A stretch of 64,000 bases of DNA, from the NCBI RefSeq assembly GCF_002150785.1, contig NZ_MTAZ01000015.1:62001-126000 (forward strand). Reading direction: 5' to 3'. The notes beneath the pieces were generated by a model. It saw nothing but the letters and a program-made list of their open reading frames with translations, was not told the DNA's origin and made no database searches. Position numbers and translations under genes: made by a program. The stretch comes from Arenibacter amylolyticus (GTDB taxonomy: Bacteria; Bacteroidota; Bacteroidia; Flavobacteriales; Flavobacteriaceae). This document shows, piece after piece, positions 30,362 through 39,518 of this stretch (the stretch's first letter is position 1; every line of letters begins with the position of its first letter).

Positions 30362-31768
30362 TTAATTCCAACCGCCGCCCAAGGCCTTATATAAATCTAC
30401 CACAGATTGCAACTGTCCATTTCGTGTATTTGCCAGATCTAAGCTGGAATTCAAGGTGTTTTCCTGGGCTCTTAGCACCTCTAGATAATTAGCCAATCCA
30501 TTGTTCAATAATTCTTGTGAATACTCCGCAGCCATGGCATAGGCTTCATATTCTTTTTCTTTTATGGCGATTTTCTCCGTTGCCAAATTATAGGAAAACA
30601 TGGCATCGGAAACTTCTTTGCTAGCAGTAAGTACGGCCTGTTTAAAATTTAAACTAGCCATTTCCTGCTGTGCCTTAGACACTTCATATTGGGTGCGGAT
30701 TTTTCTTCCATTTAAAATAGGCTGCGCAAGCCCCCCTACCAAATTGGCAAAAAGGGAATTAGCACTGAACAGTTGGTCAAAATTCAGGCTCTGAAATCCT
30801 CCTGTAGCCGAAAGGGTTAGGGATGGATAGAAATTACTCCTTGCCACATTGCTAAGCTCAAAGGCCTTTCGCAATTCCAATTCGGCCACCATAACATCCG
30901 GACGGTTGCTCAATAACTGCGCAGGTACCCCAATGACCAATTCTGTAGAAATCTGCTGATCTGCCAACACAGTCCTTTCCTTGGCTTTAGGCGTTTCCCC
31001 TAGTAGCACGGATAGCGTGTTTTCTAATAAGTATGCCTGATTTTTAAGGTCGACCAATATCGCTTTAGCGGTATGAAGCTGTGCCTCTGTCTGTTTCACC
31101 CCCACTTGGGAAACCTGTCCCGCTTCCATCAATGCTTTAGTAGTTTCCAAGCTGTTTTTACGAGTAGCTATGGTTTGCTTTGTAAGGGTCATCTGCTCGT
31201 CTACGGTAAGCAATTGATAATATACGGATGCGATGTTCGCTATAAGTCGGGACTTTACAGCCTGATGAGCGGCTACCGTCTGTAGGTAAGAAGCTTCAGA
31301 AGCTCTCTTATTACTTCGGATCTTGCCCCAAATATCTGCCTCCCATGCCAAACTTCCTGTAAGTTCGTACTGATCTTGTGAACTACCTACAAGGGCTCCC
31401 ATAGGACTGTTTTTTGACAATTCCTGATGAATATACCCTGCATTGGCGGAAAATGTTGGCAAATAGCCCGCTTTCCCTTGCTTTAGGGTTGCCTCTGCAG
31501 CAACAATTTGCTGCAAGGCTACCCGGATGTCCATATTATTGTGCAGTCCCTGCTCTATATACTGTGTAAGTATAGGATCTGTAAAGAGATCTCTCCAAGA
31601 TACCTCCGCTATGCTTACACTATCCTGAGCAATTTGATCTGTTCTAAACGCGGCTTCCTCAATAATAGCCTGGTCTGATTGTACATAATCCTTTGCGGAA
31701 AAACAGGATACCAATAGTACTGGCATACTGGCGATAATTAAATACTTTGTTAAATGTGATGTTCTCAT
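30362..31768 (-). CDS. TolC-like outer-membrane factor of the RND efflux pump (NodT/OprM family)
   Basis: 468-residue lipoprotein: MRTSHLTKYLIIASMPVLLVSC, Cys about residue 22. The ATG at 31768 is preferred because a longer frame would overlap the upstream permease. Two OEP repeats with long alpha-helical segments form the periplasmic tunnel (GLHNNMDIRVALQQIVAAEATLKQGKAGYLP; LLSNRPDVMVAELELRKA). It is the last gene of the minus-strand gbsR-MFP-RND-OMF operon, starting 4 bp after the permease stop, and completes a tripartite pump. Confidence 0.95.
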   Translation of the reverse strand: MRTSHLTKYLIIASMPVLLVSCFSAKDYVQSDQAIIEEAAFRTDQIAQDSVSIAEVSWRDLFTDPILTQYIEQGLHNNMDIRVALQQIVAAEATLKQGKAGYLPTFSANAGYIHQELSKNSPMGALVGSSQDQYELTGSLAWEADIWGKIRSNKRASEASYLQTVAAHQAVKSRLIANIASVYYQLLTVDEQMTLTKQTIATRKNSLETTKALMEAGQVSQVGVKQTEAQLHTAKAILVDLKNQAYLLENTLSVLLGETPKAKERTVLADQQISTELVIGVPAQLLSNRPDVMVAELELRKAFELSNVARSNFYPSLTLSATGGFQSLNFDQLFSANSLFANLVGGLAQPILNGRKIRTQYEVSKAQQEMASLNFKQAVLTASKEVSDAMFSYNLATEKIAIKEKEYEAYAMAAEYSQELLNNGLANYLEVLRAQENTLNSSLDLANTRNGQLQSVVDLYKALGGGWN

Positions 31769-31772
31769 ATGT

Positions 31773-34700
31773 TTAAACTTCTTCTGTAATTTCCAAAACT
31801 TCATTTTTTGACTTTCTGCCTACTTTTTCCTGTAACCACTGGAATAGGATAAATAGAATAGGAATCACAAAAACTCCCAACACAGTACCTATCAACAATC
31901 CTCCAACCGCTCCAGTTCCTATGGCTCGGTTACCCTCGGCCCCCACACCTGAGGCCAATACCAACGGCAGCAGTCCAAAGATAAAGGCGAAGGAAGTCAT
32001 TAAAATTGGTCGTAACCTTGCTTTAGCAGCATCTATGGCAGAATTTACGATGGTTTCTCCCCTTCTTCTTCTTTGAATAGCGAACTCCACAATTAAGATA
32101 GCATTCTTTGCCAGCAACCCGATTAACATAATTAAGGCAATCTGGAAGTAGATATTATTTTCCAGCCCTGCGAATTTGGTGGATATAAAGGCCCCGAAAA
32201 TTCCCAATGGTAAGGAAAACAACACGGCAAAGGGCAATAGATAACTCTCGTATTGGGCACTTAACAAGAAGTAAACAAAAACGATTACCAAAATTAATAT
32301 AATAGTGGTTTGGTTACCTGCATTGATCTCTTCTCTAGTAAGTCCGGAATAGGCCGTACTGAAATTTGCTGGAAGCTCCGCTGCTACCTCTTCTACCGCA
32401 GTAATTGCATCTCCTGTGCTAAACCCAGGATTTACCGCTGCAGTTACCTTCGTTGAGTTAAAGAGGTTAAAACGTGTTACCGACTGTGGACCATACACCC
32501 GCTCTACACTTACAAACTGTGTAATGGGCGCCATTTCCCCGCTTTTAGTTTTCACATAAAGACTGTTTAGATCTTGCTTTTGGGCCCTACTCTCGGGCAG
32601 GGATTGAATATAAACCCTGTACTGTTTCCCGAAACGGGAGAAGTCTGCCGCATAAATACTTCCTATATACCCCTGAAGGGTATTGAAAATGCTGTTTATA
32701 TTGACCCCATAATCCTTTGCCAAGGGCACGTTGATATCCAATTTATACTGAGGATATTGCGTACTGAAGGACGACTGGGCATACATAAGTTCGGGCCTTT
32801 GCATCAACTTCCCTATAAATTCTTTATTCACTTGATCTAACTCACTAAAATCCCCACCAGATAGGTCCAGTAGATTCACTTCCACTCCCGAAGAATTTCC
32901 AAAACCAGGAATACTTGGGGGTGAGAAGAATATTATTTTAGCATCGGAAACAGTGGCGGCGATACCAAACAGCTTTCCGGTAATGGCCTTGGTAGACAGG
33001 TCATCAGTAGGTCTGTCCTTCCAATCGTCCAATTTAATAAACCCTAAGCCATAGTTATTACCTGCTCCGTTAATTAAACTAATTCCGTTAATGAGGGTAA
33101 CACTATTTACTCCAGGTAAATCTTTTATTTTACCATATATTTCACGGTTTACTTCGGCCGTTCTATCTATGGAGGCCCCTGGTGGCAATTCTATGTTCAC
33201 AAACACCAACCCTCTATCCTCATCCGGTACAAATCCAGATGGCGTGGTGTTAGAAGCCCATACGATCCCCGCAACAGAAACTATAAGAATAGCTCCCGTG
33301 ATCCATTTATGACGGTATAAAAATCCGAGCGATTTCCCATAGCGTTTTACAGTAGCATCAAAGCCTAGGTTAAAGGCATGGAAAAACCGCTGTAGGAATG
33401 TTTTTTTCTTTTCTTCCTCTGTGTGGGGCTTTAATAATAGCGCACATAATGCCGGACTTAAAGTAAGGGCATTAACCGCAGAAATTAAGATGGCCACGAT
33501 TAGCGTAATCCCAAACTGCTCATAGAATACCCCGGTAGGCCCTGTGATAAAAGTTACAGGTACAAAAACTGCAGCCATGACTAGGGTGATAGATATAATA
33601 GCTCCGGTTATTTCGCCCATAGCCTCTATGGTGGCTTTTTCCATATCCTTGGCACCCTCGTCTATTTTGGCGTGGACTGCTTCTACCACTACAATGGCAT
33701 CATCTACCACAATACCGATGGCTAGTAACAGTGCAAACAGCGTTAACAGGTTAATAGAATAACCAAAAAGATTTAAGAAAAAGAAGGTACCTATAATGGA
33801 TACTGGTACGGCAATAGCCGGAATTAAGGTGGATCTAAAATCCTGCAAGAAAATAAAGACCACCACAAAAACTAGTAAAAAGGCTTCTATAAAAGTTTTT
33901 ATCACTTTGTTGACGGAAGCATTTAAAAACTCGTTGGTATCATAAGGAATTACATAGCTGATGCCATCGGGGAATCCTTTTTCCAATGTCTTGAGTTCTG
34001 TTTTAATCTCCTCAATGATCTTTTGGGCATCGGAACCAGGAGTTTGATAAATGGCCATAGCCACACTAGGATTTCCGTCGGTTTTGGCGCTACTGGAGTA
34101 CGATTGCGCATCCAACTCAATGGTTGCCACATCCTTTAATCGGAGGTACTGTCCATCCCCTAGGGCCTTGATCACAATATTTCCATATTCCGCTTCGGTT
34201 CTATAGCGACCGTCATAGGTAATTACATAGGAGAATGCCTCTCCATGATTTTCACCAATGGTTCCTGCTGCCGCTTCCTGACTCTGTTCGTTTATAGCCT
34301 GATTAATATCGGAAGGCGATAATCCATAAGCCGCCATTTTGTTGGGCTGCAACCACACTCTCATCGCGTAATCCTTACTTCCAAATACGTTTACATCCCC
34401 TACTCCATCTACCCGTTGAAAGGCTGGTACTACATTAATCTTTAGGTAATTCTGCAAGAAAACATCGTTGTACTCTTCAGAATCGGTATAAAAACTAATG
34501 AACATTAGGGCGCTGGTCTGTTGCTTTTGGGTAAGCACCCCCGTCTGCCTTACCGCTTGGGGCAGCAAGGGATTTGCCCGGGCAACACGGTTTTGCACGT
34601 TTACCGCCGCAATATCTGGATCTACATCCTGTTTAAAATATACGGTGATGGCCGCGGTTCCGTTATTGGTGGCCGTAGAGGTGAGATAGGTCATCCCCTC

Positions 34701-34916
34701 TACCCCATTAATCTGTTCTTCTATAGGAATTATTACACTTTCCAATATGGTAGCCGCAGAGGCTCCAGGATAGCTTGCTGTAACCTGAATGGTAGGTGGG
34801 GCAATATCCGGATATTGGGTTACGGAAAGGGAACTTAATCCCAGCAATCCCAAAATTACTATGATTACGGAAATTACCGTAGATAGTACAGGACGGGTGA
34901 TAAAAGTCTTGATCAT
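31773..34916 (-). CDS. RND-family hydrophobe/amphiphile efflux permease (AcrB/MexB-like)
   Basis: 1047 residues, normal length. Twelve membrane helices and two periplasmic porter domains are expected. The proton-relay residues are present: paired Asp in GIVVDDAIVVVEAV (TM4) and Lys in LAKNAILIVEFA (TM10). The N-terminal FITRPVLSTVISVIIVILG and PGASAATILESVIIPIEEQINGV are HAE-1 hallmarks. It exports drugs, bile-salt-like or other amphiphilic compounds together with the MFP and OMF neighbours. It sits 21 bp downstream of the MFP gene. Transcription is probably controlled by the GbsR-type repressor heading the operon. Confidence 0.96.
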   Translation of the reverse strand: MIKTFITRPVLSTVISVIIVILGLLGLSSLSVTQYPDIAPPTIQVTASYPGASAATILESVIIPIEEQINGVEGMTYLTSTATNNGTAAITVYFKQDVDPDIAAVNVQNRVARANPLLPQAVRQTGVLTQKQQTSALMFISFYTDSEEYNDVFLQNYLKINVVPAFQRVDGVGDVNVFGSKDYAMRVWLQPNKMAAYGLSPSDINQAINEQSQEAAAGTIGENHGEAFSYVITYDGRYRTEAEYGNIVIKALGDGQYLRLKDVATIELDAQSYSSSAKTDGNPSVAMAIYQTPGSDAQKIIEEIKTELKTLEKGFPDGISYVIPYDTNEFLNASVNKVIKTFIEAFLLVFVVVFIFLQDFRSTLIPAIAVPVSIIGTFFFLNLFGYSINLLTLFALLLAIGIVVDDAIVVVEAVHAKIDEGAKDMEKATIEAMGEITGAIISITLVMAAVFVPVTFITGPTGVFYEQFGITLIVAILISAVNALTLSPALCALLLKPHTEEEKKKTFLQRFFHAFNLGFDATVKRYGKSLGFLYRHKWITGAILIVSVAGIVWASNTTPSGFVPDEDRGLVFVNIELPPGASIDRTAEVNREIYGKIKDLPGVNSVTLINGISLINGAGNNYGLGFIKLDDWKDRPTDDLSTKAITGKLFGIAATVSDAKIIFFSPPSIPGFGNSSGVEVNLLDLSGGDFSELDQVNKEFIGKLMQRPELMYAQSSFSTQYPQYKLDINVPLAKDYGVNINSIFNTLQGYIGSIYAADFSRFGKQYRVYIQSLPESRAQKQDLNSLYVKTKSGEMAPITQFVSVERVYGPQSVTRFNLFNSTKVTAAVNPGFSTGDAITAVEEVAAELPANFSTAYSGLTREEINAGNQTTIILILVIVFVYFLLSAQYESYLLPFAVLFSLPLGIFGAFISTKFAGLENNIYFQIALIMLIGLLAKNAILIVEFAIQRRRRGETIVNSAIDAAKARLRPILMTSFAFIFGLLPLVLASGVGAEGNRAIGTGAVGGLLIGTVLGVFVIPILFILFQWLQEKVGRKSKNEVLEITEEV

Positions 34917-34937: not shown

Positions 34938-36068
34938 TTAATTTCTAAACTCCGTTTTTCTTAACTGTGCCACCTGGTCAAAGTCTACTTTCTGTGGCGT
35001 TATGGGGCTTCCGTTTCTTAATTTACCCACCCCTTTGGCAACAATGGTCTCCCCTTCTACGAGGCCCGATTCTAAGATGTACATAGGTCCAGCATTACCT
35101 TTTACCGCAATGGCTTTGGCGCTAACCGTATTATCTTCTGAAACGGTATAAACAAAAGTCTTCTCCTGTTGTTCAAAAGTAGCCTCTTGTGGAACCACCA
35201 AGGTGTTCTCAAAAACAGTGGGAATTTGAATGGTACCGCTATTACCATTGGTTAACAATGCGGCATCATTATTAAAAAGTGCCCTAAAGCTAACAGTTCC
35301 CGTATTGGGGTTTATTTGGGAATTAATAGTTTCGATCTTCCCTTTTTGATTAAACTCCCTTCCGTTGGCCAGTAAGAGAGTTACTTCTGGAAGGTTTGCA
35401 ATCTTCTCTTCCTTGGTAGTCCCAGCAGCATTTTGTAAAAAGTCTAAATATGCCTTCTCATTCATGGAAAAATACGCGTAGACTTTACTAATGTTGGAAA
35501 CGGTAGTTAAGGGAATTTGATTGGTAGGACTTACCAAAGCTCCCGTACGAAAGCGTATAGACCCCACATAACCGTCTACCGGACTTACTATGGTAGCATA
35601 GCCAATATTGGCTTCAATACTATTATACGCACTTTTGGCTTGCTGTAATTTAGCTTTCGCGGTTTCCAATTGCACCTGACTAATAATATTTTTAGCCACC
35701 AATGGCTTCAATTTATTTACTTCTACCTCAGCAGCAACAACGTTTGCTTTTGCCGCTGCAGCATCCTGAGTCATGGATTGGGTTTCCAATCTAAAAAGAG
35801 GCTGGCCCTTCTTAACTTTTTCGCCTTCATCTACCAGTACCTCAGTAATATATCCGGATATCTTGGCGCGGACTTCACTATTGACAATACCCTCTATTTT
35901 AGTAGGATAATTGGTGTAAGAAGTAACGGTTTTGATAGGAACCTCCATAACAGGAAAGGGAAGTGCAGCCATGGCCGCTGTTCCGGGTTGTCCCGATTTA
36001 TCGCTTCCGCAAGAAGCTAAGAAAGTTAATATTAAAATGGGAATGGCAGATTTAAAAGTTGTTTTCAT
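34938..36068 (-). CDS. RND periplasmic adaptor (membrane fusion protein, AcrA-like)
   Basis: 376-residue lipoprotein: MKTTFKSAIPILILTFLASC with Cys20. Domain order: barrel-sandwich/lipoyl half (VRAKISGYITEVLVDEGEKVKKGQPLF), an alpha-helical hairpin (about 95-150, AKANVVAAEVEVNKLKPL), the second lipoyl half (YATIVSPVDGYVGSIRFRTGALV), a beta-barrel domain and a membrane-proximal domain. It links the RND permease to the outer-membrane factor. The gene is separated from gbsR by 227 bp containing an inverted-repeat element and a second copy of the putative operator, so it may also have its own promoter. Confidence 0.94.
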   Translation of the reverse strand: MKTTFKSAIPILILTFLASCGSDKSGQPGTAAMAALPFPVMEVPIKTVTSYTNYPTKIEGIVNSEVRAKISGYITEVLVDEGEKVKKGQPLFRLETQSMTQDAAAAKANVVAAEVEVNKLKPLVAKNIISQVQLETAKAKLQQAKSAYNSIEANIGYATIVSPVDGYVGSIRFRTGALVSPTNQIPLTTVSNISKVYAYFSMNEKAYLDFLQNAAGTTKEEKIANLPEVTLLLANGREFNQKGKIETINSQINPNTGTVSFRALFNNDAALLTNGNSGTIQIPTVFENTLVVPQEATFEQQEKTFVYTVSEDNTVSAKAIAVKGNAGPMYILESGLVEGETIVAKGVGKLRNGSPITPQKVDFDQVAQLRKTEFRN

Positions 36069-36100
36069 TTGTAGATATTTATTGATTTATAACGGTCATA

Positions 36101-36183
36101 CCAGCCCGACTAGGTCGTTCTGGCGGGTGCGATTCGCATATCTTCATTCGCATTTGACCGCCAGAATGAATCTTTCGGGCTGG
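36101..36183. repeat. Nested inverted-repeat element
   Basis: Outer arms CCAGCCCGA (36101-36109) and TCGGGCTGG (36175-36183) and inner arms TTCTGGCGG (36118-36126) and CCGCCAGAA (36158-36166) pair perfectly, giving a two-storey stem-loop. The loop holds two copies of ATTCGCAT. It is much richer in G+C than its surroundings and looks like a REP/BIME-type mobile repeat or a strongly structured leader of the pump genes. Confidence 0.65.
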
Positions 36184-36248
36184 CGACCAGATTTCGGACA
36201 TGCTCATTTCATTTGTTGAATAATTGATTCTTTGTTTAAACTAAGATG

Positions 36249-36272
36249 GTAGTCCGAATTAGTTTGGACTAT
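36249..36272 (-). promoter_or_regulatory. Putative GbsR operator upstream of the efflux pump genes
   Basis: TAGTCC-N10-GGACTA is the same 24-bp layout as the sites at the gbsR and META-lipoprotein promoters. On the minus strand it is followed after 5 bp by TAGTTTAA, an imperfect -7 box, then the MFP gene about 170 bp further on. It also lies just after the gbsR stop, so a terminator role is an alternative. Confidence 0.45.
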
Positions 36273-36295
36273 CAATTTTGTGTGATTTGAAGTGA

Positions 36296-36781
36296 TTATT
36301 GTTGATTTTGGAATTGCTCTATTTCGTTTATTTTGAGTCGAGTGGAATTTAATTGTTCTTCCAAGTATTCCTGAAATAAACCACCCACGAATAGGGTGTC
36401 ATTAAATTTTTCTGAATTGTTATGTTGGTAGAAGTCTTTAATTTTACGTACAATATCCAACTCCTTAAGAAGCATACTTTCGTATTGCTTTATTGCACTG
36501 CCCACATAATTATTTGTAGTTTTAAAATAACGCTTCCTGTCCCCTATTTTGGTGTAATAATCCAAATACCCCAATTGCAACAGGACATTAATATTACTAG
36601 AAACAGAACTTTTACAAGCTGCAGTAAGCGCTATAATCTCATCAAATGTTAATCCATTACCGAAGGAAAGTAAGGTTGTGGCATATATGCGCGCAGCTAA
36701 AGGTGCCAAACCAGCCCTTTCCTCTAAATTAAGTCCTATTTCTTCTATCAGTACGTCCTTTTTTGGAATTACCTCTTTCAT
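36296..36781 (-). CDS. GbsR/MarR-family transcriptional regulator of the RND pump
   Basis: 161 residues from the ATG at 36781 (MKEVIPKKDV). A TTG start at 36802 is possible but would overlap the -7 box. Winged-helix MarR/GbsR fold: EEIGLNLEERAGLAPLAARIYATTLL, then the recognition helix region CKSSVSSNINVLLQLGYLDYY and the wing GDRKRYFK, then a helical dimerisation tail. In Bacteroidota, regulators of this kind often head RND pump operons and repress them. A near-perfect palindrome overlaps its own promoter, suggesting autoregulation. A paralogue lies 2.2 kb to the right. Confidence 0.9.
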   Translation of the reverse strand: MKEVIPKKDVLIEEIGLNLEERAGLAPLAARIYATTLLSFGNGLTFDEIIALTAACKSSVSSNINVLLQLGYLDYYTKIGDRKRYFKTTNNYVGSAIKQYESMLLKELDIVRKIKDFYQHNNSEKFNDTLFVGGLFQEYLEEQLNSTRLKINEIEQFQNQQ

Positions 36782-36799
36782 CTCATTATAATTATCGGA

Positions 36800-36834
36800 C
36801 AAAATTACGATTAGTTCGTAAACTTACGAACCAA
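36800..36834 (-). promoter_or_regulatory. gbsR promoter with overlapping operator
   Basis: On the minus strand a perfect -7 box TAATTTTG (36800-36807) lies 19 bp from the ATG. Immediately upstream is the inverted repeat TTAGTTC-N10-GAACCAA (36811-36834), whose core GTTCGTAA-AC-TTACGAAC is a perfect palindrome. The operator therefore fills the space between the -33 and -7 elements, the geometry of repression. Confidence 0.7.
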
Positions 36835-36961
36835 TAAAATTTAATGTTTTGTTAAATTTAACGGAAGGAATAATTCGACCCTTATCTACTAACAATCAAC
36901 TCATTACACAACAGTACATAGTTGCAGAATTTCTAAAAGGGAAATCAAAAGGGCTTAATTA

Positions 36962-37858
36962 CTATACAGTAGAACCAGCTGATTGTTTACTTTTACCAAT
37001 CAGATAGATTCCGACAAGAATCAACAATCCGCCTAACATATACCATACGGTAAACTTTTCACCATCTAAAAGTCCCCATATAACGGCTACTAAGGGAAGT
37101 AAATAAGTTACGGTACTGGCAAATACCGGAGAGGTATTCTGTATAAGCCTATAGTATAGCACCATAGCAATGGCGGTACCCATAATAGTTAAAATTGCCA
37201 AGTATCCCACAGCTTCATAGGCTTCTGGGGTAGCTTGAAAGTTTTGGAAAATACCGGATAAGATTAGGATGAGAAAAGAAGGAAGCATCCATACCGTAAA
37301 AACAGCACTAGATAGCTGCAGAGGGGGAAGATTCTGTAATTTTTCTTTTATAATTAGGGCACTCACAGCATAACTAGCCGTAGCCAAAACCACTAGAAAA
37401 GCATAAAATAATTGGGAGTCTTCCGTACTTGTTTCCGAGAAGTACATTAGGCTGGCCGCTCCTAAAAAGCCAATTATTGCACCCACAAATTGGATATACC
37501 TGCTGCGGATCCCAAAGAATATAAATCCGAAAACCAAAACAAACACTGGGACTAGTGAATCCAGTATTCCTGCCAAGGAACTACTCACCTTTGTTTGCGC
37601 CAAGGGAAAAAGGAACATTGGCAAGAAATTTCCGAAAAAACCGGTCACAATCACCCAAAACAGCACTTTTTTAGACATTTTTCTCAATGCTGGAATCCCC
37701 AAGTAAGCCATAATAAGGCCCGAGACACCTACACGAATGGCACCAATCTCATAGGGTGAAAATACTAAGAGCGACTTTTTAATTAAGATAAAAGAACTCC
37801 CCCAGGTCAGTGCTATTACGATGAGGAGAAACCATTTGTTATCGATTAATTTTCCCAT
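36962..37858 (-). CDS. EamA-family (DMT superfamily) transporter
   Basis: 298 residues from the ATG at 37858 (MGKLIDNKWFLLIVIALTWGSSF); a TTG nine bases upstream is less likely. Ten membrane helices in two EamA repeats, with the typical N-terminal WGSSFILIK, the loop GAIRVGVSGLIMA and the second-repeat ATVTYLLPLVAVIWGLLDGE. It is a metabolite exporter of unknown substrate. It is preceded by a perfect -7 box only 7-14 bp from the ATG, so the transcript would be almost leaderless. Confidence 0.9.
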   Translation of the reverse strand: MGKLIDNKWFLLIVIALTWGSSFILIKKSLLVFSPYEIGAIRVGVSGLIMAYLGIPALRKMSKKVLFWVIVTGFFGNFLPMFLFPLAQTKVSSSLAGILDSLVPVFVLVFGFIFFGIRSRYIQFVGAIIGFLGAASLMYFSETSTEDSQLFYAFLVVLATASYAVSALIIKEKLQNLPPLQLSSAVFTVWMLPSFLILILSGIFQNFQATPEAYEAVGYLAILTIMGTAIAMVLYYRLIQNTSPVFASTVTYLLPLVAVIWGLLDGEKFTVWYMLGGLLILVGIYLIGKSKQSAGSTV

Positions 37859-37864
37859 AATCCG

Positions 37865-37872
37865 CAAAGTTA
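37865..37872 (-). promoter_or_regulatory. -7 box of the EamA transporter gene
   Basis: TAACTTTG on the minus strand matches TAnnTTTG. A TTG lies 18 bp further upstream, inside the hairpin. The expected transcription start is at or next to the ATG. Confidence 0.5.
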
Positions 37873-37902
37873 AAAAGCAATTGCTCCATGCAATTGCTTT
37901 TT
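37872..37902 (-). terminator. Perfect 13-bp hairpin: terminator of the META gene abutting the EamA promoter
   Basis: AAAAAGCAATTGC (37872-37884) and GCAATTGCTTTTT (37890-37902) pair perfectly around a 5-nt loop. On the minus strand it ends in TTTTT, 72 bp after the META-lipoprotein stop, and its last base is the first base of the EamA -7 box. It could also be an operator. Confidence 0.65.
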
Positions 37903-37973
37903 AAAAATATTTATATTTTAATTAGAATCAAGTAAGTTAAACTCCTGATTAATTGCAGGTTGATAAACCAAGC

Positions 37974-38804
37974 TTAATCAAAATAAACCGCCTCAAAAAC
38001 TGCCAAAGGAGCCCTTCTTCCCACATTAAGCATCAAGGTATCACCGTTTATGGTATAGTTATCCGCTAACTCCAACACCTTTAGAAATTCTGATTCGTTA
38101 AACGGAACATCGGGACAAGCCTTAAGAGTAGCTAATACTTGGGAAAATCTAATGCGATTCCCTTCTTCGAGGGTATATCCCCCTTGAAAAGTATTACAAC
38201 CTGCAAAACCAGTAACCCTGTTTTCATTTGCCTTAAGAATAAAATAAATCTCACGTTCTTGATTATCGGCCATCTTCACTTCCTTACCTTCCAAGGTTTT
38301 CAATTTCCAATATTTTTCTGTGATAAGATCTTTTTGCACCGCTGCTTTTTTAAAAACTGCCAAGGGTGCCCTTCTTCCCACATTTAACCTAAGCGTGGTA
38401 CCATCAAAGGTATAGTTATCGGCAAGTTTAAATACTTCCAATACCTGTGACTCATCTATAGTCTGATCTGGACAAGCCATACGAGTTACCCCCATTTCAC
38501 TAAAGCGAATCCTATTTCCCTCTGCTAGAGTAAAACTCCCAAAACCTGAATTACATCCAAAATATCCGCTAAAAGTATTATCCTCACCGTTTAGTGTGAA
38601 TCGGACATTTCTATCATGTGCTTGGTCTAGAGCCACTTTTTCCCCTTCTAGTTCTGTAAGGATCCATTCTGTATTAGTTATTTCTGACTGTACTTCCATT
38701 TTACTTTCATTGTTTGGAGCCGATTCACCAGCAATATTTTTCTGGGTATTACAGCTTATGGTACTAAGGACAATGCTTAAAACAGCTATCATTTTTATTT
38801 TCAT
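37974..38804 (-). CDS. Lipoprotein with two tandem META (HslJ-like) domains
   Basis: 276 residues: signal peptide MKIKMIAVLSIVLSTISC (Cys18), then two META domains (about 43-155 and 160-272). Each carries an (E/Y)W.L..LEG start, a G(Y/F)xGCN centre, EGNRIRFS, (M/K)ACPD and (N/D)GxTLxLNVGRRAPLAVF. The two copies are clearly an internal duplication. HslJ of E. coli is a META lipoprotein linked to novobiocin resistance and heat shock; here the role is unknown. The promoter carries a copy of the putative GbsR operator, tying it to the efflux pump regulon. Confidence 0.88.
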   Translation of the reverse strand: MKIKMIAVLSIVLSTISCNTQKNIAGESAPNNESKMEVQSEITNTEWILTELEGEKVALDQAHDRNVRFTLNGEDNTFSGYFGCNSGFGSFTLAEGNRIRFSEMGVTRMACPDQTIDESQVLEVFKLADNYTFDGTTLRLNVGRRAPLAVFKKAAVQKDLITEKYWKLKTLEGKEVKMADNQEREIYFILKANENRVTGFAGCNTFQGGYTLEEGNRIRFSQVLATLKACPDVPFNESEFLKVLELADNYTINGDTLMLNVGRRAPLAVFEAVYFD

Positions 38805-38840
38805 GACTTCAGTAGTTGTGTTTTTGAATTAAATTCTCCA

Positions 38841-38876
38841 CAAACTTACTCTTTAGTTCGCTTCATTAAGAACTAA
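38841..38876 (-). promoter_or_regulatory. META-lipoprotein promoter with GbsR-type operator
   Basis: On the minus strand a perfect -7 box TAAGTTTG (38841-38848) is preceded after 4 bp by TTAGTTC-N10-GAACTAA (38853-38876), a perfect 7-bp inverted repeat with the same spacing as the site at the gbsR promoter. The sequence further upstream (AATGTTTTGTTAAATTT) is also shared between the two promoters. Confidence 0.7.
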
Positions 38877-39029
38877 TCGAAATAATGTTTTGTTAAATTT
38901 TATTCACTAAGTGCAGGTTGAATGCTCCCCGTTCCACTCAGGATGGCGTTAACTATTCAAAGTAGTTTTCGTCCCATGCTCAATGGGCTTGCCCAGAGGT
39001 AAGTGATTGGTAGCTAATAAATATAGGGG

Positions 39030-39518
39030 TTATTGTTCTTGACCGTCTAGGAAGTGGGTCATTTTCTTAAGAGTTTGTGCTACCAATTGTTGTTGCGCCT
39101 TGGTATACTCTTGCATAATGGTGCCCATAGAATTTTCATTCACAAACTTTTCGGGGTAATGGCTTAGATTATAGGCATTAATCTTATCGATAAGTTCTAC
39201 TTCTCTAGTTAAGGACTGCGCGTATTGCTGCAAATAGTTCTTTTGAAAGTACCTAGCTATTTTAAAAAACCGTTTTCTATTCCCTGGCTTGGTAAAGTAC
39301 TCTACATATTTTAATTGGGTAAGTACATTAAGATTAATGGAGGTAGAACTCTTACTTGCTCCCAAAGCATCTCTAATCTCTTCGAAGGAGAGTCCGTCAT
39401 AGGATGATAATGTTAACAGACCGTAGATCCTTGCCGCCAGCGGGGAAACCCCCATGCGTTCACTAAATCCAATACCTATTTCTTCTATAAGCTGTTTTTT
39501 CTCCTCTGAAAGATTCAA
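39030..39518 (-). CDS. Second GbsR/MarR-family regulator (paralogue)
   Basis: 162-residue winged-helix protein clearly related to the pump regulator: EEIGIGFSERMGVSPLAARIYGLLTL, recognition region ASKSSTSINLNVLTQLKYVEYF, wing GNRKRFFK, and a helical tail. It is monocistronic, 225 bp upstream of the META gene on the same strand. It may share or compete for the TAGTyC-N10-GrACyA sites; no such palindrome is seen in front of this gene itself. Confidence 0.88.
   Translation of the reverse strand: MNLSEEKKQLIEEIGIGFSERMGVSPLAARIYGLLTLSSYDGLSFEEIRDALGASKSSTSINLNVLTQLKYVEYFTKPGNRKRFFKIARYFQKNYLQQYAQSLTREVELIDKINAYNLSHYPEKFVNENSMGTIMQEYTKAQQQLVAQTLKKMTHFLDGQEQ

Follow-up and report, generated by a model that had tools for sequence, protein, structure and literature searches.

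The analysed window is a 64,000-nucleotide stretch of the Arenibacter amylolyticus genome. In this window, gbsR1, the gene for a GbsR-type regulator, adjoins and precedes the genes for the adaptor, permease and outer membrane factor of an RND efflux pump, and an operator is located at the gbsR1 promoter. The features are as follows, in order of position.

30362..31804, minus strand: outer membrane efflux factor (TIGR01845, over its cut-off)
31773..34916, minus strand: RND permease (TIGR00915, over its cut-off)
34938..36068, minus strand: RND periplasmic adaptor (TIGR01730, E 4.5e-67)
36250..36271, minus strand: site 3, a palindrome (TAGTCC-N10-GGACTA) between gbsR1 and mfp that does not belong to the operator class of sites 1 and 2
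36296..36781, minus strand: gbsR1, GbsR-type winged-helix regulator of 161 aa, weak CudC/GbsR match
36800..36807, minus strand: -7 promoter box TAATTTTG, read from sequence, 4 bp past operator 1
36812..36833, minus strand: operator 1 (site 1), gbsR1-mfp-rnd-omf promoter, TAGTTC-N10-GAACCA; transcribed strand TGGTTCGTAAGTTTACGAACTA
36843..36859, minus strand: upstream promoter element AAATTTAACAAAACATT; TTAACA starts 24 bp before GTTC of operator 1
36962..37867, minus strand: EamA-type transporter (PF00892) between META and gbsR1, without an operator of its own
37871-37904: hairpin upstream of the EamA gene, seen in G001, G004 and G008, the three genomes compared
37974..38804, minus strand: double META-domain lipoprotein of 276 aa (PF03724 in two stretches, E 1.3e-44; lipobox identified by eye)
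38841..38848, minus strand: -7 promoter box TAAGTTTG, read from sequence, 5 bp past operator 2
38854..38875, minus strand: operator 2 (site 2), META promoter, TAGTTC-N10-GAACTA; transcribed strand TAGTTCTTAATGAAGCGAACTA
38884..38900, minus strand: upstream element of the META promoter; TTAACA starts 23 bp before GTTC of operator 2
39030..39518, minus strand: gbsR2, paralogue from the sister clade of GbsR1

The two GbsR proteins of the window score 25.7 (GbsR1) and 43.5 bits against the CudC/GbsR model NF047500, far under its equivalog cut-off of 218, and are predicted to belong to the GbsR family by a family-level match, not to be CudC equivalogs. All 16 homologues scanned match this model at E up to 0.001, and their profile matches 4nb5 and Mj223 1ku9, the latter over positions 2-132 with an E of 7e-7. 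The fold model of GbsR1 itself, built on a two-sequence alignment, was too poor for use (pLDDT 53). After proteins shorter than 110 aa were dropped and identical ones merged, 110 GbsR sequences entered the tree, in which GbsR1 and GbsR2 form sister clades; the second paralogue that an earlier, sequence-only reading of this DNA had placed beside the pump regulon is present. Their alignment retains a helix, ASKSsiSt.Ln.L, and a wing, YfTK.GDRKrYF (capitals in at least 80% of the sequences, small letters in at least 50%). A search of the genome contigs with GbsR1 gave one weak locus, and this result was left unused. The META lipoprotein reaches 151 bits against the PF03724 cut-off of 24 and stays under the HslJ equivalog cut-off (44.9 versus 168).

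Operator sites and promoter geometry

The sequence-only reading reported three 24-bp operator sites, and all of them are present, with the 22-bp palindromes starting and ending one base inside the reported ends. The TAnnTTTG box that it placed 3-4 bp downstream of sites 1 and 2 corresponds to the 4 and 5 bp measured from the 22-mers. The sigma-A box TAnnTTTG spans -12 to -5, as described in an excerpt of PMC9723704, and the operator occupies the -33 to -7 spacer. The 5-bp distance between operator and box is retained at META in G001, G004, G008, G009 and G012, and TTTG at the -33 spacing inside the left arm is retained in G018 and G028.

The flank common to sites 1 and 2, also part of that reading, was found at 36843-36859 and 38884-38900. 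TTAACA lies 23-25 bp before GTTC in 60 of 72 family sites, against a background of 7 in 65 anywhere in range; the count covers 72 of the 75 places outside this genome, with L151, L152 and L168 omitted. From its sequence, the common flank is read as a phased, recurrent upstream element of these promoters. Its recurrence as such an element was absent from the earlier reading.

A family matrix was trained on 61 distinct gbsR-RND sites from other genomes, the weakest of which scores 18.3 bits. Seven of the 75 non-own places were left out (L108, L127, L166, L151, L152, L157 and L168), and merging of duplicates reduced the remaining 68 to 61. Operator 1 scores 26.4 bits on this matrix, whereas operator 2, which is asymmetric inside, scores 19.8 bits on the transcribed strand and 21.7 on the opposite strand, below the weakest same-genus gbsR1 site (25.6). 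Across the 64-kb window, scores above 10 bits are confined to sites 1 and 2; the next best score is 8.9, and no higher one occurs elsewhere in the window, including the gbsR2 upstream region. The gbsR2 promoter has no operator in this genus (best upstream scores of -0.8 to -8.8 bits in five same-genus orthologues). The palindrome arms in the family extend to about TTAGTTCGG....CCGAACTAA, and the inner positions 4, 5, 12 and 13 carry 1.4-1.8 bits each. This corrects the earlier view that conservation is confined to the arms: part of the ten inner bases is constrained as well.

An orthologous site was found for operator 1 in five of five same-genus genomes with the gbsR pair, and the META promoter site recurs in five of five same-genus orthologues, at 10.6-27.6 bits. 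Conservation at orthologous promoters, which had been proposed as a check, thus holds for both promoters in all six same-genus genomes with the gbsR pair, this one included. On sequence grounds, sites 1 and 2 are very likely conserved promoter operators and real switch sites. Their arrangement supports a single regulon that would tie together a GbsR-type regulator, the RND pump and the double-META lipoprotein.

Site 3 does not join them. It scores -6.6 bits on the family matrix and is followed only by the weak box TAGTTTAA, 6 bp past it (5 bp from the 24-mer). In five same-genus orthologues, the best scores over the whole gbsR1-mfp gap are -18.3 to -20.6, and the palindrome has no counterpart there. 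The reading in which all three sites, 36250-36271 included, are operators of one regulon, with site 3 as an internal promoter of the pump, is favored by the perfect 6-bp arms and identical spacing of site 3 and by a right half-site-like TTNCGRACTA at the corresponding position of G001 and G004. Against these points stand the matrix score, the weak box and the orthologous gaps, as well as the RNA of site 3, which folds as a modest hairpin (z -2.48; 5 of 200 shuffles as good). Site 3 was rejected as an operator on its matrix score and its absence from the same-genus gaps, so that the three-operator reading is given little probability; of the three-site regulon proposed earlier, the part with sites 1 and 2 (pump, repressor and lipoprotein) stands. 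Site 3 is possibly an mRNA hairpin. The gbsR1-mfp gap of G008 contains one unrelated 6-10-6 palindrome.

Distribution of the operator in the genome and the family

In the window, the arm pattern gives 5 matches at three places, where 0.04 are expected, and none of 100 shuffles gave as many. With the flanks added, it is exact only at sites 1 and 2 in the 3.99-Mb genome. A pattern anchored on the box, GTTC-N10-GAACYA-N4/5-TAnnTTTG, occurs at exactly three places in this genome: two in the window, ahead of gbsR1-RND and of META, and one elsewhere, ahead of a third gbsR-RND operon (G000:C37:195463-195494). The GbsR of this third operon appears from its sequence to be a more distant paralogue with its own pump and the same operator type. 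Its operator was absent from the sequence-only reading. Genome-wide, the looser motif with one mismatch shows no enrichment (29 places versus 28 for the reversed control), and the signal emerges only if the arms are exact and are combined with the flanks or the -7 box. The claim that the motif is not equally frequent in coding DNA was borne out for the strict motif, which is not found elsewhere in the coding DNA of this genome. Two one-mismatch sites, C31:97252 and C80:9050, lie inside open reading frames and were therefore taken as chance; we take these frames to encode a UDP-GlcNAc 2-epimerase-like and an aspartyl-tRNA synthetase-like protein, respectively.

Across 299 family genomes, the anchored pattern is found at 78 places and the reversed control at 9. 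This excess argues against chance similarity or the functionless duplication of one promoter, as does the persistence of the arms across many genera while inner bases and surroundings change, together with the META sites at other loci in other genera. The 17-bp flank common to sites 1 and 2, as a duplication would give, and the unenriched looser motif point toward chance or duplication, yet the probability of this explanation is close to negligible.

A gbsR match begins within 100 bp in 68 of the 75 non-own anchored places, and 67 of these 68 have an adaptor and a permease farther downstream, the remaining one being at a contig end. Three of the 75 precede META genes distant from the pump. L151 and L152 (G027 and G305), where the operator lies 0.85-1.3 kb ahead of a GbsR2-clade gene and behind a broken-looking MFS gene, were not counted as direct gbsR sites. 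The L157 site (G144) precedes a 131-aa lipoprotein without a Pfam match, a possible operator target. The L168 site (G127), whose inner palindrome is poor and whose fetched surroundings match neither gbsR nor META, was taken as chance. The exact anchored pattern is present in 19 of 25 genomes with gbsR (E up to 1e-10) and in none of 31 without it (p 4e-10), as tallied by hand for the 56 genomes common to the gbsR search and the motif scan. The remaining six gbsR genomes, which lack an exact match, each have a relaxed operator of 14.9-31.6 bits. Among 30 scored gbsR loci, which partly overlap the 75 places, three lack an upstream site.

META carries the operator in all six same-genus genomes with the gbsR pair and also in G144, G273, G359 and G342; the other genera include cases in which META lies away from the pump. 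In G273, whose single GbsR at E up to 1e-8 falls in the GbsR1 clade, META lies 18 kb from the pump, with operators at both. Long META homologues without an operator by the matrix occur in seven genomes (G030, G320, G307, G157, G070, G336 and G314), and the second META gene of G359 also lacks one by this measure. Because of these absences, META is a lineage-limited target of the operator. In G001, G004 and G008, this operator type may also serve a DUF308 membrane protein.

The comparison shows that the operator exists and is conserved, how it is placed within the promoter, and that it is linked to gbsR and META genes. The protein that binds it could alternatively be a separate, unlinked regulator that controls both the gbsR operons and META. 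Binding by GbsR is something we infer, the fetched neighbourhoods of META in G359 and G273 contain no gbsR match, and gbsR2 of G342 lies about 1.7 kb from META. However, such a regulator would need to track the gain and loss of gbsR, given the site directly before gbsR in those 68 non-own places and the lack of the exact pattern in the 31 compared genomes without gbsR, and it is considered very improbable.

Proposed repression of the pump and lipoprotein genes

The reading held with high confidence is that sites 1 and 2 serve as operators for the adjoining GbsR-type repressors, which would repress gbsR1-mfp-rnd-omf and META in parallel. The palindrome, with a family consensus of about TTAGTTCGG-N6-CCGAACTAA, is most likely the binding site of a GbsR dimer. 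Because the palindrome fills the -33 to -7 stretch and its left arm overlies the -33 element, bound GbsR would keep the sigma-A RNA polymerase off the promoter. Repression of gbsR1-mfp-rnd-omf would amount to autoregulation, with the META lipoprotein gene probably repressed alongside. An inducer, probably a pump substrate or an envelope stressor, may release GbsR, and the pump and lipoprotein would therefore rise together. GbsR1 and GbsR2, with near-identical DNA-reading residues, probably share the operator, and both would most likely act as repressors that occupy the -33 region.

GbsR may instead bind the operator and activate transcription. TTAACA is phased 23-25 bp before the operator, and these promoters may therefore be complex. 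In contrast, a dimer sitting between the -33 and -7 boxes would obstruct sigma-A, TTTG at the -33 spacing is retained in the left arm in G018 and G028, and the GbsR-family members characterized in an excerpt of PMC6207618 are repressors. Activation is thus quite improbable, and repression by GbsR is the preferred reading.

Relation to known systems

GbsR, OpuAR, OpcR, YvaV and CydE are proteins of the same type as the window regulators, with a similar local repressor logic. In the excerpted 2018 survey (PMC6207618), Mj223 1ku9 is the template for GbsR models, and the targets named for the family comprise genes for glycine betaine synthesis, osmolyte importers, cydAB and a few other transporters. 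The same excerpt gives no consistent role for Bacteroidetes members, and it describes CydE as lacking the aromatic cage for choline or glycine betaine, a feature of the osmostress subgroup, and suggests other effectors for other groups. The window regulators differ in their targets, an RND pump and a META lipoprotein, and the operator suggests RND efflux control as a role for Bacteroidetes GbsR. A literature search pairing GbsR with flavobacteria or RND found no paper on GbsR control of RND efflux; no GbsR-controlled META gene was found, though GbsR and META were not paired directly as terms.

The window lipoprotein shares the META domain and its nature as an envelope protein with HslJ-type proteins. 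According to an excerpt of PMC11724541, HslJ of E. coli is linked to novobiocin resistance, whereas that of A. baumannii is linked to peroxide and imipenem survival and not to novobiocin. The poorly understood META/HslJ-type proteins gain a conserved regulatory partner, which suggests that they act in the envelope defence of the pump. It can be tentatively hypothesized, at somewhat below even chances, that Flavobacteriaceae have an envelope-defence regulon constituting a fifth, efflux class of GbsR, with one operator for RND pumps, META/HslJ-type lipoproteins and sometimes DUF308 proteins. If so, META proteins would work together with RND efflux as functional partners, and the signal sensed by GbsR would be an efflux substrate rather than osmolytes. 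The defined operator site is directly testable and can be searched for in other genomes.

The RaeR-RaeC-RaeA-RaeB pump of Riemerella has a TetR-family regulator, according to an excerpt of PMC5727081. The present system resembles MexR and AcrR in having a small, probably autoregulated repressor adjoining an RND operon, with the operator over the promoter. MexR and AcrR are local repressors of RND pumps of the MarR/TetR type. In contrast to them, the repressor in this window belongs to another family, the promoter is of the flavobacterial type, and a META lipoprotein, sometimes located away from the pump, would be co-regulated.

Predicted GbsR operators in the window and in the genome

The sequence-only reading proposed that three matching palindromes define a small regulon of a GbsR-type repressor gene (here gbsR1), its RND pump genes (mfp, rnd and omf) and a double META-domain lipoprotein gene (META), with a second GbsR paralogue (gbsR2) next to it. 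The three palindromes are present, each one base inside the ends originally reported, and the genes concerned are on the minus strand.

36812-36833, minus strand: site 1, operator before gbsR1; TAATTTTG 4 bp downstream
38854-38875, minus strand: site 2, operator before META; TAAGTTTG 5 bp downstream
36250-36271: site 3, palindrome in the gbsR1-mfp gap; weak box downstream

The exact arm pattern exceeds chance, with 0.04 matches expected in the window and the observed number reached by none of 100 shuffles. Genome-wide, a looser motif with one mismatch showed no enrichment (29 places vs 28 for the reversed control). Once the conserved flanks are included (TTRGTTC-N10-GAACYAA), exact matches are limited to 2 places in 3.99 Mb, sites 1 and 2; the three one-mismatch matches of this longer pattern comprise a gbsR promoter on contig C37 and two places within coding frames. 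The anchored pattern, in which the operator arms are combined with the -7 box TAnnTTTG, is found at exactly three places in this genome: before gbsR1, before META, and at the promoter of a third gbsR-RND operon on C37 (G000:C37:195463-195494). A site was also found at the matching third operon in all five same-genus genomes checked (13.3-32.5 bits).

Scores come from a weight matrix built from 61 distinct operators of gbsR-RND loci, all outside this genome: site 1 reached 26.4 bits and site 2 21.7 bits, and the best remaining place in the window 8.9 bits. The length of the arms had been underestimated, as the matrix extends them to about TTAGTTCGG....CCGAACTAA. Site 3 scored -6.6 bits and was not retained as an operator. 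The best scores in the gbsR1-mfp gap of five same-genus genomes were only -18.3 to -20.6, and the site 3 palindrome was not found there; G001 and G004 carry a stretch resembling its right half. As RNA, site 3 folds into a modest hairpin.

The same gap contains a 93-bp imperfect inverted repeat (36098-36190), with two near-full copies (92%) and two partial copies elsewhere in the genome, which is REP- or MITE-like. A hairpin between META and eamA (37871-37904, AAAAAGCAATTGC...GCAATTGCTTTTT), kept in 3/3 same-genus genomes compared, is a likely terminator.

Conservation of the operator across the family

The pattern GTTC-N10-GAACYA-N4/5-TAnnTTTG was searched in 299 family genomes and found in 70 of them, at 78 places vs 9 for the reversed pattern. 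All 75 places outside this genome were inspected. At 68, a gbsR match starts at most 100 bp away, followed by adaptor and permease genes at 67 of these loci and by a contig end at the remaining one. Three places lie upstream of META away from the pump: in G359 and G342 the pump is on another contig, and in G273 it is 18 kb distant. META of G342 lies ~1.7 kb from gbsR2. Two places (L151 in G027, L152 in G305) are 0.85-1.3 kb upstream of a GbsR2-type gene, with a broken-looking MFS gene between the operator and that gene. Locus L157 of G144 has a strong operator at 201-232, then a 131-aa lipoprotein without a Pfam match, possibly a further target. One place looks like a chance match.

Among 56 genomes searched for both features (gbsR at E up to 1e-10), the exact pattern occurred in 19 of 25 with gbsR vs 0 of 31 without (p 4e-10), and a relaxed operator scoring 14.9 to 31.6 bits is present in every one of the six gbsR genomes that lack it. 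An upstream site of at least 10 bits was present at 27 of 30 gbsR loci scored, which partly overlap the 75 places; none was found at L057, L219 and L224.

Five further same-genus genomes have adjacent gbsR1 and gbsR2 with META and the pump, and in all five the orthologous promoters before gbsR1 and META keep the site, as the regulon proposal implied. Across the six genomes, this one included, META keeps 5 bp between operator and -7 box and gbsR1 keeps 4 bp, and this constancy per gene indicates two distinct promoters retained across speciation. Searched in the GAACNA form, the anchored pattern was found in 16 of 18 same-genus genomes; the other two (G011, G017) have a GTTT variant upstream of gbsR.

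META as a predicted target and its regulators

In a tree of 110 proteins, GbsR1 (9 members, support 0.913) and GbsR2 (11 members, 0.995) form sister clades (joint support 0.993), and residues of the recognition helix and wing are largely conserved across all 110. META homologues were searched in the 299 genomes. All ten genomes in which both a protein of either clade and META were identified (this genome, G001, G004, G008, G009, G012, G144, G273, G359 and G342) have a META promoter site of at least 10 bits or an exact anchored match; Fisher values on this association take no account of shared ancestry and allow a loose reading only. An eleventh, G283, has a GbsR1-clade gene and, at a distance of 365 bp upstream of META, a site that is weaker (18.3 bits). 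No META match was found at E up to 1e-20 in G027 and G305, which have a GbsR2-clade protein. Seven genomes with long META homologues and no GbsR1/GbsR2-clade protein identified, by tree (G030, G320, G070, G336) or by low GbsR scores only (G307, G157, G314), have no META site of at least 10 bits. No site was found at the second META gene of G359 or at 18 more distant META matches.

The case for META as a target is clearest in G273, which has a single GbsR (E up to 1e-8) and an operator at both META and the separated pump. G273 and G283 possess GbsR1-clade members only, and G342 has, apart from a more distant GbsR, a GbsR2-clade member only. Since the META site is present in all three, GbsR1 or GbsR2 alone seems enough for it, judging from gene content. 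An operator before gbsR2 itself was not found in Arenibacter; one is present in G359 and G342.

A DUF308 membrane protein gene also carries the operator in the same-genus genomes G008 (L236:4600), G001 (L237:4545) and G004 (L242, with a weak -7 box); no homologue was found in this genome at E up to 1e-10.

Promoter geometry and comparison with known systems

The consensus of the -33 element is TTTG. Where the -7 box follows at 4 bp, the palindrome extends from about -39 to -16, and its left arm covers this element; in G018 and G028, TTTG-N19-TAnnTTTG (spacing counted by hand) places TTTG within the left arm. The flavobacterial sigma-A box TAnnTTTG is assigned to -12 to -5 in PMC9723704. A GbsR dimer on the palindrome would exclude polymerase, and for that reason the likely mode of GbsR action is predicted to be repression. 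The flank common to sites 1 and 2 (36843-36859 and 38884-38900) belongs to a phased element further upstream, in which TTAACA starts 23-25 bp upstream of GTTC in 60 of 72 family sites; of 65 background promoter boxes, 7 have TTAACA at any position in the range. This element may be of the UP type or serve as the site of a second regulator.

According to PMC11724541, META proteins of the HslJ type have been associated with resistance to novobiocin in E. coli and with survival of oxidative stress in Acinetobacter. A 2018 survey of the GbsR family grouped members by their neighbours, and gave no consistent picture for Bacteroidetes (PMC6207618). Our literature search did not find GbsR and RND together in one paper. 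Control of RND pumps by a local repressor is already known and is likewise proposed for the pump in the window. Because the literature available to us does not tie the GbsR family to efflux in this group, its predicted role as an RND pump repressor is counted as new, together with the META lipoprotein as a putative co-target of that repressor.
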